Shown one piece after another: positions 13,686 to 21,113 of a DNA stretch of 64,000 nucleotides. Source of the stretch: an uncultured Sphingomonas sp. (lineage in GTDB: Bacteria; Pseudomonadota; Alphaproteobacteria; Sphingomonadales; Sphingomonadaceae). A program made the position numbers and the translations under genes. How positions within the stretch are numbered: position 1 is the first letter of the stretch; each line of letters opens with the position of its first letter. The DNA lies in the NCBI GenBank assembly GCA_913776045.1, contig CAJYOI010000008.1, forward strand, positions 21,495 through 85,494. The letters run 5' to 3'. Under the pieces are notes generated by a model. That model saw only the letters and a program-made list of their open reading frames with translations. It had not been told where the DNA came from and did not search any database.

Positions 13686-13705
13686 ATATAAAGATATCTT
13701 TATAT
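13686..13705. promoter_or_regulatory. Perfect 20-bp palindrome, candidate SahR-type operator
   Basis: ATATAAAGAT-ATCTTTATAT is perfectly self-complementary over 20 bp and stands out as AT-rich in this genome. It lies 5 bp upstream of a consensus -35 (TTGACA). Palindromes of this kind are recognised by ArsR-family regulators; SahR, which senses S-adenosylhomocysteine and controls methionine-cycle genes in Proteobacteria, is the obvious candidate. The assignment to SahR is inference. Confidence 0.6.
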
Positions 13706-13710
13706 CATGA

Positions 13711-13739
13711 TTGACAGCATCGAGCCGATGGTGTTGAAC
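13711..13739 (+). promoter_or_regulatory. Promoter of the mes operon
   Basis: TTGACA at 13711-13716 is a full -35 match; TTGAAC 17 bp later (13734-13739) is a weak -10. This would start transcription near 13746, immediately before the riboswitch, and place the palindrome against the -35. Confidence 0.45.
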
Positions 13740-13750
13740 GGCCATGTCGA

Positions 13751-13938
13751 GGTTCCCCATTCCAGGCATGGCGATGGGGCTAAGACGGGAAGCCGGTGGT
13801 GTCCTTCGGGGCAGAGTCCGGCGCTGCCCCCGCAACTGTAAGCGGCGAGCGGCGGCTCCATTTCGTGTCACTGGGTTTTCGCAAGAAGCCCGGGAAGGCC
13901 GGAGCCACCGCGTTGACCCGTGAGCCAGGAGACCTGCC
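13751..13938 (+). ncRNA. Cobalamin riboswitch
   Basis: The classic elements are in order: GGTTCCCC start, GACGGGAAGCCGGTG (13785-13799), CCGGCGCTGCCCCCGCAACTG, the GTAAGCGG strand, CACTGG, CCGGGAAGGC, GACCCGTGAGCCAGGAG and the B12 box AGCCAGGAGACCTGCC ending at 13938. It faces mesX 143 nt downstream with no gene between. Cobalamin binding should switch off the operon. That fits a B12-independent methionine synthase, which is redundant when MetH can work. Confidence 0.93.
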
Positions 13939-14081
13939 TTTCGACGCCATAACGTTCCTCGGACGGGGGTTCCTCCGGTGGATCGCGCTTGATGCGACGG
14001 TTCGTGGTTTGCCGCCATCCGGGCCCGTTCACGCCTTGCGCGCTTTCGCCTGACCTCCCGCCCGCAAAGCCTGGGTGAGTC

Positions 14082-15065
14082 ATGACGAATAGCGGGTTCA
14101 CATTTTCAATCAGCAGTATCCCGTTCGACGAGGATTATCGTCCGGCCGACAACACGCGCATCACCACGAACTTCGCAAATCTCGCGCGCGGGGACAGCCG
14201 CCAGGAGAATTTGCGCAACACGCTGGTGATGATCGACCACCGCTTCAACGCGCTGATGCACTGGGATAATCCCAAGGGTGATCGCTACACGCTGGAGCTG
14301 AAGATCGTCTCCGCCGCGCTTTCACTCGGCGATGGCGCAGACGACGAACCGTTTCCGCTCATCGAAATCCTGCACACGACCGTCACCGACTGTATCAGCG
14401 GCGAGCGCAATGACGGCATGATCGGTAACAACTTCTCATCCTATGTGCGCGATTACGACTTCAGTGTCGTCCTGCCCGATCACCTGAAGGCCGGGGGCGG
14501 GGGCGCGCCGGAGGGATTCGGCGATCTGCACGGCAATCTTTTCAAGCATTTCCTTGCATCAGCTGCTTACCGCGAAAACTTCCGCAAGCCGCCGGTCATC
14601 TGCCTCAGCGTATCGAGCAAGGAGGTCTATCATCGGACCGCCAATGTCCATCCGCTCCTCGGCGTCGAGTATCGCAACGACAAATTCTCGCCCACGGATC
14701 AGTATTTCGCCAAAATGGGCATGAAGGTGCGCTATTTCATGCCGCCTCACAGCGTCGCGCCCTTCGCCTTCTACCACACCGGCGATCTGGTCAGCGACTA
14801 CACCAACCTGGAACTCGCCAGCACCATCGCCACGATGGAGACGTTCCAGAAGATCTATCGCCCCGAAATCTACAACGCCAATTCTGTGGCGGCGGAGCAT
14901 TACCAGCCGAGCTTGAGGTATCAGGACTATTCGCTGACGCGCATCGTCTACGATCGCGAAGAGCGTAGCCGCCTCGCCGTCGAGCAGGGCAAATTCGCCG
15001 AAGAGCATTTCATCAAGCCGCATGCTGCCGCGCTTCAGCGCTGGTCCGCAACCTGCGGCCTCTGA
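14082..15065 (+). CDS. mesX: MesX, DUF1852 partner of MesD
   Basis: 327 residues, a soluble DUF1852 protein recognisable by the N-terminal FTFSISSIPFDEDYRP and by its invariable pairing with a MetE-like core protein. Price and co-workers showed that MesD-type methionine synthases need DUF1852 (MesX) and oxygen, but not cobalamin or methyl-folate; the chemistry of MesX is unknown. Here it is the first gene after the cobalamin riboswitch. The ribosome site (GGGTGAG before ATG) is modest. mesD follows after 25 bp. Confidence 0.9.
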   Translation: MTNSGFTFSISSIPFDEDYRPADNTRITTNFANLARGDSRQENLRNTLVMIDHRFNALMHWDNPKGDRYTLELKIVSAALSLGDGADDEPFPLIEILHTTVTDCISGERNDGMIGNNFSSYVRDYDFSVVLPDHLKAGGGGAPEGFGDLHGNLFKHFLASAAYRENFRKPPVICLSVSSKEVYHRTANVHPLLGVEYRNDKFSPTDQYFAKMGMKVRYFMPPHSVAPFAFYHTGDLVSDYTNLELASTIATMETFQKIYRPEIYNANSVAAEHYQPSLRYQDYSLTRIVYDREERSRLAVEQGKFAEEHFIKPHAAALQRWSATCGL

Positions 15066-15090
15066 TCCCCACGACACGAAGGTATCATCC

Positions 15091-16119
15091 ATGACGACAT
15101 TGTTGCCGACGACGACCGCGGGCAGCCTGCCCAAGCCATCCTGGCTCGCCCAGCCCGAGACGATCTGGTCGCCGTGGCGGCTGGAAGGCGAGGATTTGGC
15201 GAGGGGGAAGCAGGACGCGCTGCGCCTTGCCGTCGACGACCAGCGGCAGGCGGGCATCGACATCATCGGGGACGGCGAGCAGACGCGCCAGCATTTCGTC
15301 ACGACGTTCATCGAGCATCTGGGCGGCGTCGATTTCGAGAAGCGCGAGACGGTCCGCATCCGCAACCGCTATGATGCCAGCGTGCCGACTGTCGTTGGTG
15401 CCGTGTCGCGACCGAAGTCGGTGTTCGTCGAAGACGCCAGATACCTGCGCGCGCAGACCGATCAGCCGATCAAATGGACGCTGCCTGGCCCAATGACGAT
15501 GATCGATACGCTGTACGATGCGCATTACCTCAGCCGCGAGAAACTGGCCTGGGAGTTCGCGCTGCTCCTGAACCAGGAAGCGAAGGAGTTGGAAGCGGTC
15601 GGCGTCGACATCGTCCAGTTCGACGAACCCGCCTTCAACGTGTTCTTCGAGGAGGCCAACGACTGGGGCATCGCCACGCTGGAAAAGGCGGCAGAGGGAC
15701 TGAAGGCCGAAACCGCGGTCCACATCTGCTATGGCTACGGCATCAAGGCGAATACCGACTGGAAGAAGACGTTGGGGGCCGAATGGCGTCAATATGAGGA
15801 AACCTTCCCCAACCTGCTGAAGTCGACGATCGATATCGTGTCGCTGGAGTGCCAAGCGTCGCACGTTCCGATGGACCTGATCGAACTCATCCGCGGCAAG
15901 AAGGTGATGGTCGGCGCGATCGACGTCGCGACCGATGTCGTCGAAACGCCCGAGCAGGTCGCCGACACGCTGCGCACTGCGCTGCGCTTCGTCGATGCCG
16001 ACAAGCTCTTGCCCGCGACGAACTGCGGCATGGCGCCGCTGTCGCGGGACGTCGCACGGGGCAAGCTCAAGGCGTTGGGTGCCGGTGCGGAGATCGTCCG
16101 CAAGGAACTGGCGGCCTGA
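15091..16119 (+). CDS. mesD: MesD, folate-independent core methionine synthase
   Basis: 342 residues starting MTTLLPTTTAGSLPKPSWLA; the open frame runs to 15022 but that part overlaps mesX. It is the catalytic half of MetE without the folate-binding N-terminal domain. Zinc and homocysteine residues are in place: H211 and C213 in VHICYGYG, C312 in ATNCGMAP, plus E179 in QFDEPAF. It transfers a methyl group to homocysteine to make methionine; the methyl donor for the MesD family is not known. A degraded copy of residues 73-121 lies at 37498-37644. Confidence 0.92.
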   Translation: MTTLLPTTTAGSLPKPSWLAQPETIWSPWRLEGEDLARGKQDALRLAVDDQRQAGIDIIGDGEQTRQHFVTTFIEHLGGVDFEKRETVRIRNRYDASVPTVVGAVSRPKSVFVEDARYLRAQTDQPIKWTLPGPMTMIDTLYDAHYLSREKLAWEFALLLNQEAKELEAVGVDIVQFDEPAFNVFFEEANDWGIATLEKAAEGLKAETAVHICYGYGIKANTDWKKTLGAEWRQYEETFPNLLKSTIDIVSLECQASHVPMDLIELIRGKKVMVGAIDVATDVVETPEQVADTLRTALRFVDADKLLPATNCGMAPLSRDVARGKLKALGAGAEIVRKELAA

Positions 16120-16242
16120 TCGTTCCCCCGCCGTCGATCTCTCCTCCTTGGCGGAGGCGGGGTCGACGCGCGGCGACACATTCACGAGTACGCTCGACAG
16201 GCCAGGGCGACGACAGCGAACCGTAAGACCGGGGTATCCAGC

Positions 16243-17241
16243 ATGAATGCCATTCTCAGTCGATTGCGGATCGACGCCTACATCCTCGCGATCGTCGGAA
16301 TGGTGGTGCTCGCCGCGATCCTGCCTGCCAGGGGCACGGGCAAGGACGTGCTAGACATCGTGGTCCATGCCGCCATCGCGCTCCTGTTCTTCATCTATGG
16401 CGCGCAGATTTCCCGACAGGCGATCTGGACGGGCATCCTGCACTGGCGACTGCAATCCCTGGTGTTCGCGACGACATTCGTGGTGTTTCCGCTGCTGGGC
16501 TTCGGAATCGCCAAACTCGCCGATGGGCATCTAGACAGTGGGCTCGTCACCGGGCTGATGTTCGTTGCGCTGCTACCCTCAACGGTGCAGTCGTCGATCG
16601 CCTTCACGTCGATCGCACGGGGCAACGTCCCCGCGGCCCTGTGCTGCGCATCCCTGTCGAACCTGGCGGGTGTCGTTATTACGCCGCTGCTGGCGACGAT
16701 GGTCCTCAGCGCCGGGACGGGCGGCATGTCGCTGGATGCGGTGGGCGATATCGCGCTGCAGATCCTGTTGCCGTTCGTGGTTGGTCAGTTCGCACGACCG
16801 CTCATCGGCGAATGGCTGAACCGCCAGAAGACGCTGACGATGGTCGTCGATCGCGGCTCGATCCTGCTGGTCGTCTATTCCGCGTTCAGTGCGGGCGTCG
16901 TAGCCGGAATCTGGAGCCGGGTGACGCCGCACAGCCTCGGGCTCGTCATCGTCCTCGACCTTGTCATGCTGGCGATCGTGCTGGTGATAACCACGGCGGC
17001 AAGCCGCTTCCTGCGTTTCACCACCGAAGACGAGATCGCCATCGTGTTCTGCGGATCGAAGAAGAGCATGGCGAGCGGCCTGCCGATGGCCAACATCATC
17101 TTCCCCGCCAGCGCGGTCGGTCTGATTGTCCTGCCGCTGATGCTGTTTCACCAGATGCAGTTGATGGTCTGTGCCGCACTTGCCCGGCGGTACGCCCGGC
17201 GGGCCAAGACCTCCGTTCCGACCGTCCCCGCGCGGATATGA
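16243..17241 (+). CDS. BASS-type (bile acid:Na+ symporter-like) transporter
   Basis: 332 residues with about ten membrane segments and the SBF-like signature FCGSKKSMASGLPMANIIFP near residues 268-287. The family (YfeH-like, bile acid:sodium symporter fold) moves organic anions with sodium. It is 123 bp after mesD and overlaps the flavin reductase by four bases, so it probably belongs to the mes operon. Plant BASS5 carries 2-oxo acids of methionine-derived glucosinolate synthesis, so a 2-oxo acid or methyl-donor precursor is possible; that is speculative. Confidence 0.8.
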   Translation: MNAILSRLRIDAYILAIVGMVVLAAILPARGTGKDVLDIVVHAAIALLFFIYGAQISRQAIWTGILHWRLQSLVFATTFVVFPLLGFGIAKLADGHLDSGLVTGLMFVALLPSTVQSSIAFTSIARGNVPAALCCASLSNLAGVVITPLLATMVLSAGTGGMSLDAVGDIALQILLPFVVGQFARPLIGEWLNRQKTLTMVVDRGSILLVVYSAFSAGVVAGIWSRVTPHSLGLVIVLDLVMLAIVLVITTAASRFLRFTTEDEIAIVFCGSKKSMASGLPMANIIFPASAVGLIVLPLMLFHQMQLMVCAALARRYARRAKTSVPTVPARI

Positions 17242-17786
17242 CTCCATCCCCCGATGCCGATGCGTCCGGCGCTCCAGGACCGAAGCCGATGAACCTATTG
17301 GCTCCGATCGATGAAGAGACAGACCTGCGCCGTGTGTTCAGCCGGTTCCCGACCGGAGTCACGGCGCTCTGTGCAATGGATCAGGGAACGCCTGTCGGCA
17401 TGACGGCGAGCGCGTTTGTCGCCATCTCCATCACGCCGCCCCTCGTCTCGGTCTGCATCAAGCATGGCTCGGCGACCTGGCGGCAGTTGCGGGGGTTCGG
17501 ACGCATCGGCATTTCGTTCCTCGGAGCGAGCCATGCCGCAACGGCGCGTCAGTTGGCGCAAAAGGGCAGTGACCGCTTCCACGGGCTTGGATACGAGACG
17601 ACCCCGGACGGTGCGGTGTTCCTGACCGATGCCGGCGCCTGGCTGGAATGTTCGGTGGAGCAGGAGATCGCGGCGGGCGATCACGACATTGTCCTCTTCC
17701 GGCTCCACCGTGCGGCGACCGCGGACGGGATAATGCCGCTGGTCTTTCACTCCAGCGTCTTTCACACGCTGACACCGATCGGGTAG
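17238..17786 (+). CDS. Flavin reductase family protein
   Basis: 182 residues from MTPSPDADAS at 17238 (ATGA overlap with the transporter); MNLLAPIDEE at 17289 is an alternative start. The flavin-reductase-like fold is shown by FSRFPTGVTALCAMD, PVGMTASAFVAISITPPLVSVCI and the SD-RF-GL motif. Such proteins make FMNH2 or FADH2 from NAD(P)H for two-component monooxygenases. In an operon with the oxygen-requiring MesX/MesD pair it is a plausible supplier of reduced flavin; this link is inference. Confidence 0.85.
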   Translation: MTPSPDADASGAPGPKPMNLLAPIDEETDLRRVFSRFPTGVTALCAMDQGTPVGMTASAFVAISITPPLVSVCIKHGSATWRQLRGFGRIGISFLGASHAATARQLAQKGSDRFHGLGYETTPDGAVFLTDAGAWLECSVEQEIAAGDHDIVLFRLHRAATADGIMPLVFHSSVFHTLTPIG

Positions 17787-18772: not shown

Positions 18773-19936
18773 TCAGGCAGCGAGATGGTCGCCGCGGGCG
18801 GCGAGCGGCACCCAGGCGAGATCTTCGGGGCCGGTGTAATTGGCGGACGGGCGAATGATCTTGTTGTCCTGGCGCTGCTCGATGACATGTGCCGCCCAAC
18901 CGCTGGTGCGCGCGATGACGAAAAGCGGCGTGAACATCGCGGTCGGCACGCCCATCAGATTGTAGGAAACGGCAGAGAACCAGTCGAGGTTCGGGAACAT
19001 GCGCTTGGCGTCCCACATCACCTCTTCAATGCGGGCGGCGACGGCGAACTGGCGCCGAGCACCTGCCTCGTCGGCAAGCGCCTTGGCGACACGCTTGATG
19101 ACGACGTTGCGCGGATCGGCCACGGTATAGACCGGATGGCCGAAGCCGATCACGACCTCCTTGGCCTCGACGCGGCGACGGATGTCGGCGTCTGCCTCGT
19201 CGGGGGTCGCGTACCGTTTCTGGATTTCATAGGCGACCTCGTTCGCGCCGCCATGCTTGGGGCCGCGCAGGGCGCCGATCGCGCCGGCGACGGCCGAATA
19301 CATATCCGATCCGGTGCCGGCGATCACGCGGGCGGTGAATGTCGAGGCGTTGAACTCATGCTCGGCATAGAGGATGAGCGAGGTGTGCATCGCGCGCACG
19401 AAGCTGTCGGATGGTGCCTCGCCGTGCAGGAGGTGGAGAAAATGCCCGCCGATGCTGTCGTCGTCGGTCTCCACCTCGATCCGGCGGCCGTGATGTGCAA
19501 AATGATACCAGTAGAGCAGGATCGACCCGAGCGACGCCATCAGCCGGTCGGCGATATCGCGTGCGTCGGCGACGTTGTGATCGTGCGCTTCCGGCAGGAC
19601 GCACCCTAACGCCGACACGCCCGAGCGCATGACGTCCATCGGATGTGCTGCAGCGGGGATCGCCTCCAGAGCGTCCTTCACAGAGCGCGGCAAGCCACGC
19701 AGAGCCCGCAGCTTCTTCTTGTACGACGCGAGTTGCGCCGCTGTCGGCAGGGCACCGTGGACCAGCAGATGGGCGATCTCCTCGAACTCGCTCGTCTCGG
19801 CGAAGTCGAGTATGTCGTAGCCGCGATAATGCAGGTCGTTGCCGGTACGGCCGACGGTGCACAGCGCGGTGTTCCCGGCCGTCACGCCCGAGAGCGCGAC
19901 CGATTTCTTCGGCTTGAAGGTGGGGACGTCGTTCAT
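18773..19936 (-). CDS. prpC: 2-methylcitrate synthase
   Basis: 387 residues starting [10 protein letters not shown], with GAGAGGAAA upstream. It is a type II-like citrate synthase: HRGYD-like [11 protein letters not shown], catalytic HAEHEFNAS-type [21 protein letters not shown], and GFGHPVY. Within the prp operon it should condense propionyl-CoA with oxaloacetate. Flanked by prpF and prpB with short gaps. Confidence 0.93.
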
Positions 19937-19952
19937 CGGCTTGGCTTTCCTC

Positions 19953-21113
19953 TCAGAAACTGTCGGCGGGGACGTGGACATGACCGTCCATCAGCACCCG
20001 CGCGCTGCGGCTCATGACCGCCTTGGTGATGATCCATTGGCCGTTCGCCTGGTGCGCCTCGGCGCCGACACGCAAGCTGCCGGAAGGGTGGCCGAAGCGG
20101 ATCGATGTCCGCCCGCCCCCCCCGGCGGCTTTGCTGACCAGCGTGCCCGGCACCGCCGCCGCGGCGGCAATCGCGACGGAGGCGGTGCCCATCATCGCGT
20201 GGTGCAGCTTGCCCATCGACAGCGCACGGACGAGCAGGTCGACCTCGCTGGCCAGCACTTCCCGACCGCTTGACGTGCGATGGTCGATGGGCGGCGCGAC
20301 GAAGGCGATAGCCGGGGCGCGCGTCGTTTTGACGATGCCCATCGCCTCGGCTCCGGACGTGCGCAGCGCCTCGAGGCGGGCGAGCGCGTCCACGTCACCG
20401 TTAATGGCGTCACGAAGCTCGGCGCCGGAATATCCCAGATCCTCCGCCACGACGAAAACGGTCGGCACCCCGGCGTTGATGAGGGTCGCCAGGATCATAC
20501 CGCCCGGCACGACGGCGTCGTCGACCTTCAGCGTGTCGATTGGCTGCCCGGTCGGAAACAGCGCGTCCGACGCGTCGGCGGGGTCGACGAACTCCAGCAC
20601 AATCTCGGCAGCCGGGAAGGCTACACCATCGAGCTCGAAATCACCGGTTTCGACGATCTGCCCGTCGGCGACAGGCACATGTGCGACGATCGTCTTGCCG
20701 ATATTCGACTGCCAGATGCGAACCGTGCAGACGCCGTCGACCGCGCGGGCGGCCTCGACATAGCCAGCCGCAATCGCAAACGCCCCGACCGCGGTGGACA
20801 GGTTCCCGCAATTGCTCGACCAGTCGAGCGCACCGCTGTCGATCGCGATCTGCCCATAAAGGTAATCGACGTCATGGCCCGCCCGCGTCGCCGGGGAGAC
20901 GATAACGCATTTGGACGTGCTCGACGTCGCACCGCCCATGCCGTCGATGTGTGCGCCATAGGGGTCGGGACTGCCGATCACACGGCGAAACAGCCGGTCG
21001 CGTGCTTCCCCCGGCGTCCGGGCGCGTTCGGGTAGGTCTTCGAGCCGGAAGAACACGCCCTTGCTGGTGCCGCCACGCATATAGGTGGCCGGGATACGCA
21101 GCTGCGGCTTCAT
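19953..21113 (-). CDS. prpF: PrpF, accessory protein/isomerase for AcnD
   Basis: 386 residues from [20 protein letters not shown], the standard start of the PrpF/AcnD-accessory family with a diaminopimelate-epimerase-like fold. PrpF is needed with AcnD and isomerises the trans-aconitate product. The start overlaps the acnD stop (ATGA); the much longer upstream frame is shadow. Confidence 0.93.

Follow-up and report, generated by a model that had tools for sequence, protein, structure and literature searches.

How methionine is made when cobalamin (vitamin B12) is scarce is the question raised by a locus in a 64-kb stretch of DNA from an uncultured Sphingomonas sp. (hereafter the window; part of an 85-kb contig in a 3.15-Mb draft genome), in which the genes mesX (DUF1852) and mesD stand in line with a transporter gene and a flavin reductase gene. 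MesX and MesD were named by Price et al. (2021, PMC7857596) from work on S. koreensis and Acinetobacter baylyi. The sections of that paper on which we rely, here and below, report that both proteins are needed and MetF is not, in S. koreensis and in E. coli, that mesX and mesD alone rescue E. coli ΔmetE and ΔmetF strains in minimal glucose medium, and that this rescue fails without oxygen. Since the two genes suffice in these strains, the methyl donor must already be present inside E. coli; its identity was posed as an open question in 2021. The sequence-only reading from which we started proposed an undescribed methionine route; the route is in fact already described in that paper, and it is the donor that is not. 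We propose that the whole operon provides a backup route to methionine that works aerobically and without B12, with MesX fed on reduced flavin, a reading to which we give a probability of about 60%. The idea that MesX uses flavin and O2 is that of Price et al. and was largely anticipated in print; what is added here is the regulatory and accessory arrangement.

Proposed control of the operon by B12 and the methionine cycle

Matches to RF00174, Pfam and NCBIfam, together with direct reading of the DNA, gave the order palindrome, TTGACA hexamer, cobalamin riboswitch, mesX, mesD, SBF-like (BASS) transporter and flavin reductase. This bore out the arrangement proposed from the letters alone, the palindrome, the riboswitch and all four genes being matched. 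The riboswitch aptamer (13732-13955, + strand) matched the full RF00174 model with 111 bits (E = 6e-27; gathering score 31.5); no other Rfam match in the window reached gathering score. Upstream of it lies a perfect 20-bp palindrome, ATATAAAGATATCTTTATAT (13686-13705, no strand assigned). Near-copies with up to 3 mismatches occurred at four places in the whole draft genome, and a backwards control gave none. They lie before mesX (0 mismatches), before a gene combining an ArsR-type helix-turn-helix with a methyltransferase and followed by metF and metH (1 mismatch), before metK (3 mismatches) and before ahcY (3 mismatches). The regulon description in Leyn (2014, PMC4239095) gives sahR, ahcY, metH, metF and metK as the SahR core regulon, with a 20-bp palindrome. 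Because the four sites match this core regulon, standing before putative sahR, ahcY, metH/metF and metK, we read the palindrome as a probable SahR-type operator; the ArsR-methyltransferase protein is a putative SahR, named by its position and regulon.

The sequence-only reading also placed a promoter here. The hexamer TTGACA (13711-13716, + strand) is likely its -35 element, because TTGAC follows the palindrome in 18 named Sphingomonas-like and Brevundimonas loci, but a promoter scan found nothing over chance (1 found, 1.0 expected) and the one site found was not this hexamer.

For the survey of mesX loci, 398 genomes from the phylum and 298 from the family were searched; 44 and 9 of them, respectively, gave a match, both counts including the genome of the window. 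Among the 52 stretches fetched, two (L093 and L094) were dropped, with mesX broken or cut by a contig end. To the remainder we added the window and 80 named loci, which were the 80 ranking highest in similarity to it out of at least 593, for a total of 131 loci; relatives of the window are over-represented among the named ones. No pair among the 131 had more than half of its 20-mers in common over 1,800 bases of mesXD. A riboswitch preceded mesX in 27 of these loci, 14 called by Rfam and 13 further ones by the conserved box alone; Rfam was run on the whole first set of 50 loci (5 positive) and on 11 of the 80 named loci (8 positive), the remaining 69 being judged by the box only. The palindrome, with up to 5 mismatches, was present in 24 of the 27 riboswitch-bearing loci (missing in L046, L084 and L133), in 1 of the 104 others (L043, a weak site with 5 mismatches) and in 5 of 655 shuffled upstream regions. 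MetR-like TGAA-N5-TTCA sites preceded mesX in 37 of 131 loci and in 3 of 655 shuffles, and in L086 and L088 an ArsR-methyltransferase gene instead lies directly 5' of mesX. Further cobalamin riboswitches were seen beside mesX on the opposite strand, directed away from it, in L096 (5322-5521, - strand) and L158 (4204-4425 and 5585-5798, - strand).

Published regulons place the same gene pair under methionine control: in the part of Leyn (2014, PMC4239095) considered here, PF08908-metE2 belongs to MetR regulons and metE2 to the genome-specific members of SahR regulons, and, unlike in the window, a B12 riboswitch stacked on a SahR site is not described. The logic is that of Sun et al. (2013, PMC3766115), who in the relevant section report a B12 riboswitch controlling the B12-free isozyme of a B12-dependent enzyme; the terms metE2, metE and DUF1852 do not occur in their main text, whereas the target in the window is mesXD. 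The words riboswitch, SahR, transporter, permease and symporter have no occurrence in the main text of Price et al. In A. baumannii AB5075, according to the data drawn on from PMC12892962, the DUF1852 gene is 8.3 log2 lower with B12, and a flavin reductase gene two locus tags away 2.5 log2 lower; no B12 box was found at the named loci L124 and L151 of Acinetobacter, the genus with this published repression. A literature search, with bioRxiv and most subscription journals outside its scope, returned no answer on the MesD methyl donor, no B12 riboswitch with MesD and no transporter beside mesXD. The stack of a probable SahR operator on a riboswitch, absent from the literature searched, is the clearest addition of this analysis. 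It would amount to a simple two-input design that reads the state of the S-adenosylmethionine cycle and B12 to select between methionine synthases, and this control is testable in tractable Sphingomonas.

No full-length MetE was found among the PF01717 matches in the window's genome. MetH is encoded in two pieces lying on separate contigs: the piece on contig C21, which MetF adjoins, has its own stop, and the second begins at the end of a contig. MetH is likely truly split, with an assembly effect as the alternative, and a split MetH is reported in the cited sections on S. koreensis (PMC7857596). The second B12 riboswitch of the genome precedes genes for a periplasmic binding protein and a TonB receptor, the best NCBIfam match of the latter being a B12 receptor at 308 bits, below the cut-off of 600. 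It appears that the organism scavenges B12 and, when this is present, runs MetH with MetF, and MesXD is the only strong candidate found for a B12-free methionine synthase, betaine-type enzymes not having been searched for. Two carriers of MesD tolerate N2O, as reported in the passage used from PMC13059711. One contig of the window's genome (G000:C10; L182 and L183) also carries a weak MTHFR-like match and two more PF01717 genes, both distant.

Proposed flavin supply and chemistry of MesX

The 327-residue product of mesX (14082-15065, + strand) covers positions 3-323 of the 323 in PF08908, titled 'Putative oxygenase MesX' in Pfam (557 bits against a cut-off of 25; E = 1.4e-167). In each of the 131 loci mesX is followed by mesD in the same orientation. 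In the window, mesD (15091-16119, + strand) encodes 342 residues with PF01717 over residues 5-329 as sole Pfam match, 663.9 bits against NF006589 'methionine synthase' (cut-off 392) and 3rpd as solved relative. MesD is thus the catalytic domain of MetE without the N-terminal folate domain. Its zinc-ligand pattern H211, C213, E253 and C312, positions placed by motif, was kept in all 132 rows of the residue alignment (the 131 loci, with the window entered twice), and has the ligand types His, Cys, Glu and Cys given in the part of Price et al. concerned (PMC7857596). In two Alcaligenes loci (L130 and L136), a MetE-sized gene (763-764 residues, at about -2560 to -250 relative to mesX) precedes mesX in the same orientation; it is matched by our local MesD profile and is MetE by appearance only. 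These loci possibly hold two B12-free methionine synthases in tandem.

A flavin reductase gene was found in line on the mesXD strand in 54 of 131 loci, of which 44 had a PF01613-type (family check positive in 44/44) and 10 an MsuE-type reductase (TIGR03566, FMN_reduc_MsuE, in 10/10; the one protein put through Pfam gave PF03358); 77 loci had neither. The PF01613-type was in line in 5 of 51 loci of the phylum and family set with the window and in 39 of the 80 named loci, the MsuE-type in 4 and 6, respectively. In 42 of the 44 loci of the first type, no more than 270 bases separate the mesD stop from the opening of the PF01613 frame; in the window and L096 the frame comes after the transporter. 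MsuE-type genes stop 57-59 bases short of mesX in nine loci (L065, L067, L068 and six Stenotrophomonas) and, in L085, one lies between mesX and mesD. Outside Sphingomonas and Brevundimonas, the PF01613 proteins share 19-29% identity with that of the window. This linkage is non-random against a low background of 58 PF01613 matches in 26 of 50 mesX genomes, picked to span families. The window's own reductase (17238-17786, + strand; 182 residues, 114.7 bits to PF01613) is the sole PF01613 match in its draft genome; it scores below each NCBIfam equivalog cut-off, and its relatives in the PDB are mostly named flavin reductases or flavin mononucleotide (FMN) oxidoreductases.

The linkage survey favours a MesX that would use reduced flavin. 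Because two unrelated reductase families adjoin the same mesXD pair, reduced flavin is probably consumed there, and this is the best genomic evidence for it. Characterised HpaC, StyB and MsuE reductases serve monooxygenases that consume reduced FMN (FMNH2). The reductase families of mes loci match those of such two-component systems (HpaC/StyB- or MsuE-type reductases); unlike their monooxygenases, MesX has no other Pfam family, no PDB sequence match and no confident PDB fold match. The arrangement resembles that in Price et al. (2021, PMC7857596), the cited part of which notes a flavin reductase near the same two adjacent families and predicts flavin use by MesX. In S. koreensis mesX, mesD and the reductase are Ga0059261_2928, _2929 and _2931, and tag _2930 may stand between mesD and the reductase as the transporter gene does in the window. 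The use of O2 and reduced flavin by MesX, as the sequence-only reading had it, is therefore not new; it is a published prediction, which the linkage in 54 of 131 loci strengthens.

MesX could instead be a metal-dependent oxygenase, for example of the non-haem iron type, with the reductase keeping the metal reduced or acting as a general electron source. In MesX, 115 positions are kept in at least 130 of the 132 rows. H150 and H190 are the only invariant histidines, C174 is also invariant, and several carboxylates, E95, D124, D126, E196, D235, E244 and E262, are nearly so (E95 and E196 being kept in 130 rows or more). By sequence, the two histidines with these carboxylates and C174 would suffice for a 2-His-1-carboxylate site. 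A sequence search of the PDB returned no relative of MesX, and Pfam no family besides PF08908. A predicted model built with 62 sequences (predicted local distance difference test, pLDDT, 83.7; predicted template modelling score, pTM, 0.85) had no confident fold match in the PDB or among viral models, and the PDB search with it found no flavoprotein fold, a point in favour of a metal. Taken by themselves, these sequence and fold results would allow both flavin and metal chemistry. What makes a metal enzyme unlikely is that two unrelated FMN reductase families adjoin mesXD in different lineages, and that the monooxygenase partners of characterised HpaC, StyB and MsuE relatives consume FMNH2.

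Built on the genes, riboswitch match, operator distribution and linkage observed here, the flavin-fed backup would work as follows. With B12 present, MetH and MetF would make methionine. Scarcity of B12 would lift riboswitch repression, and accumulation of S-adenosylhomocysteine would make the SahR-type repressor leave the palindrome; with both inputs, the mesX-mesD-BASS-flavin reductase message would be made. We infer the direction of both controls, as we do reduced flavin as co-substrate of MesX, the role of BASS and the donor. The reductase would provide reduced FMN, with which MesX and O2 would convert a common metabolite to an activated donor of methyl groups, unless MesX carries the methyl itself, and MesD, holding homocysteine on its zinc, would take the methyl to give methionine. 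BASS would move a small organic anion (substrate, by-product or counter-ion), which would be helpful but not required. It is very improbable that flavin replaces folate. In that case MesX would use FMNH2 and a one-carbon unit to make, in a step that needs O2, an N5-methylated flavin, and MesD would demethylate this carrier, which would be chemically similar to 5-methyl-tetrahydrofolate; if true, the reductases would feed the carrier and not just electrons, and BASS would handle the acid that gives up the carbon. For the donor question, the reductase gene inside mesX-mesD and the two unrelated reductase families offer handles.

A recurrent transporter beside mesXD

The transporter gene of the window (16243-17241, + strand; 332 residues) begins 123 bases after mesD and encodes the sole PF13593 match in the draft genome (322 bits against a cut-off of 25; E = 5.6e-96). 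Assignment as the PanS pantoate transporter was rejected, NF047939 giving 25.4 bits against a cut-off of 400. The reductase gene had been read as coupled to the transporter gene by overlap. This holds if the first ATG is used, which forms an ATGA with the BASS stop, and fails if translation starts at the alternative ATG at 17289, leaving 47 bases between the two. The latter is suggested by L096, where the reductase starts at the counterpart of 17289, 17 codons further on; there, the corresponding Met does overlap the BASS stop. The start codon of the window's reductase is uncertain.

Eight of the 131 loci have BASS in line with mesXD: the window, L095, L096 and L097 (all Sphingomonas), where it comes after mesD; L089 (another Sphingomonadaceae genus), L121 (Devosia) and L075 (after the reductase); and L118 (Pseudomonas), where it lies upstream of mesX. 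Two trees made from different rows each needed three label changes, two of them forced by well-supported branches, and the only well-supported BASS clade in both united five Sphingomonadaceae proteins (100/99). Judged by position, we would say that BASS was recruited three or four times, the Devosia, Pseudomonas and L075 branches being long. In the 50 background genomes PF13593 gave 68 matches (about 1.4 per genome, one gene counted twice); ten genomes had none and three had one beside mesXD. The link is real, above chance and non-random, if weak, and is accessory; random association, by which the sequence-only reading would have been refuted, was seen for neither the reductase nor BASS. The transporter family, recruited more than once, is a further handle on the donor question, as its substrate could name the chemistry.

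Chance insertion and shared regulation may be all that links BASS to mesXD, a tentative explanation that we think possible though rather unlikely. The gene is missing from most loci, gene order varies between lineages, and neither of the two plasmid proteins closest to its product (63% and 62%) is encoded next to mesX. Separate recruitments, three required by either tree and two forced by well-supported branches, speak against a mere passenger, as does its presence beside mesXD in 3 of 50 genomes at only about 1.4 PF13593 matches per genome.

An exporter or exchanger for an acidic by-product of the MesX reaction is less likely still. A TauE/SafE gene, of a family named for sulfite export, follows the reductase in L077, and the purely illustrative reaction given in the cited part of Price et al. 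(PMC7857596) would yield leftover glyoxylate. One of five plasmid BASS relatives away from mes genes adjoins glyoxylate carboligase and 2-dehydropantoate 2-reductase genes, but the others adjoin unrelated genes, and all of these hints are indirect.

Import of the methyl donor, as claimed in the sequence-only reading, is improbable. Recurrent in-line placement in 8 loci by more than one recruitment would fit an importer, and an extra supply of donor is still conceivable. However, a BASS gene in line with mesXD is missing from 123 of the 131 loci, and because mesX and mesD alone rescue E. coli in minimal glucose medium (PMC7857596, section cited above), BASS is no obligatory donor importer.

In a stretch without mesX in the 8 kb fetched (L230:4980-7358), an SBF_like gene lies 25 bases before a gene for O-acetylhomoserine sulfhydrylase (TIGR01326) on the same strand.

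Plasmid copies, unusual records and downstream genes

Among the best 80 named loci, the closest MesX proteins are from Sphingomonas (IC-56, 94%; Leaf9, 89%). MesX relatives were found on 208 of 72,556 plasmid records, so mesX travels. On plasmid NZ_CP101723.1 (Sphingomonas sp. NY01 p1; L231), mesX is 93.9% identical to that of the window and mesD is present, with no BASS and no reductase gene within 5 kb; an IS66 element lies 2 kb upstream. The dropped stretch L093 (G082:C1:2172000-2180000) holds a decayed second mesX-mesD, with mesX in two pieces, one having an internal TGA, and the same genome also holds an intact pair. The mes locus of Arthrobacter sp. TPD3018 (L102) is laid out like that of Sphingomonas L103, and that of Bacillus subtilis SK6B4 (L142) like that of Pseudochrobactrum L141; both records are likely mislabelled or contaminated assemblies. 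Downstream of the operon in the window, two genes converge on it: prpB for methylisocitrate lyase (TIGR02317; 17838-18776, - strand) and a citrate-synthase-like gene, named by appearance only (18773-19981, - strand).

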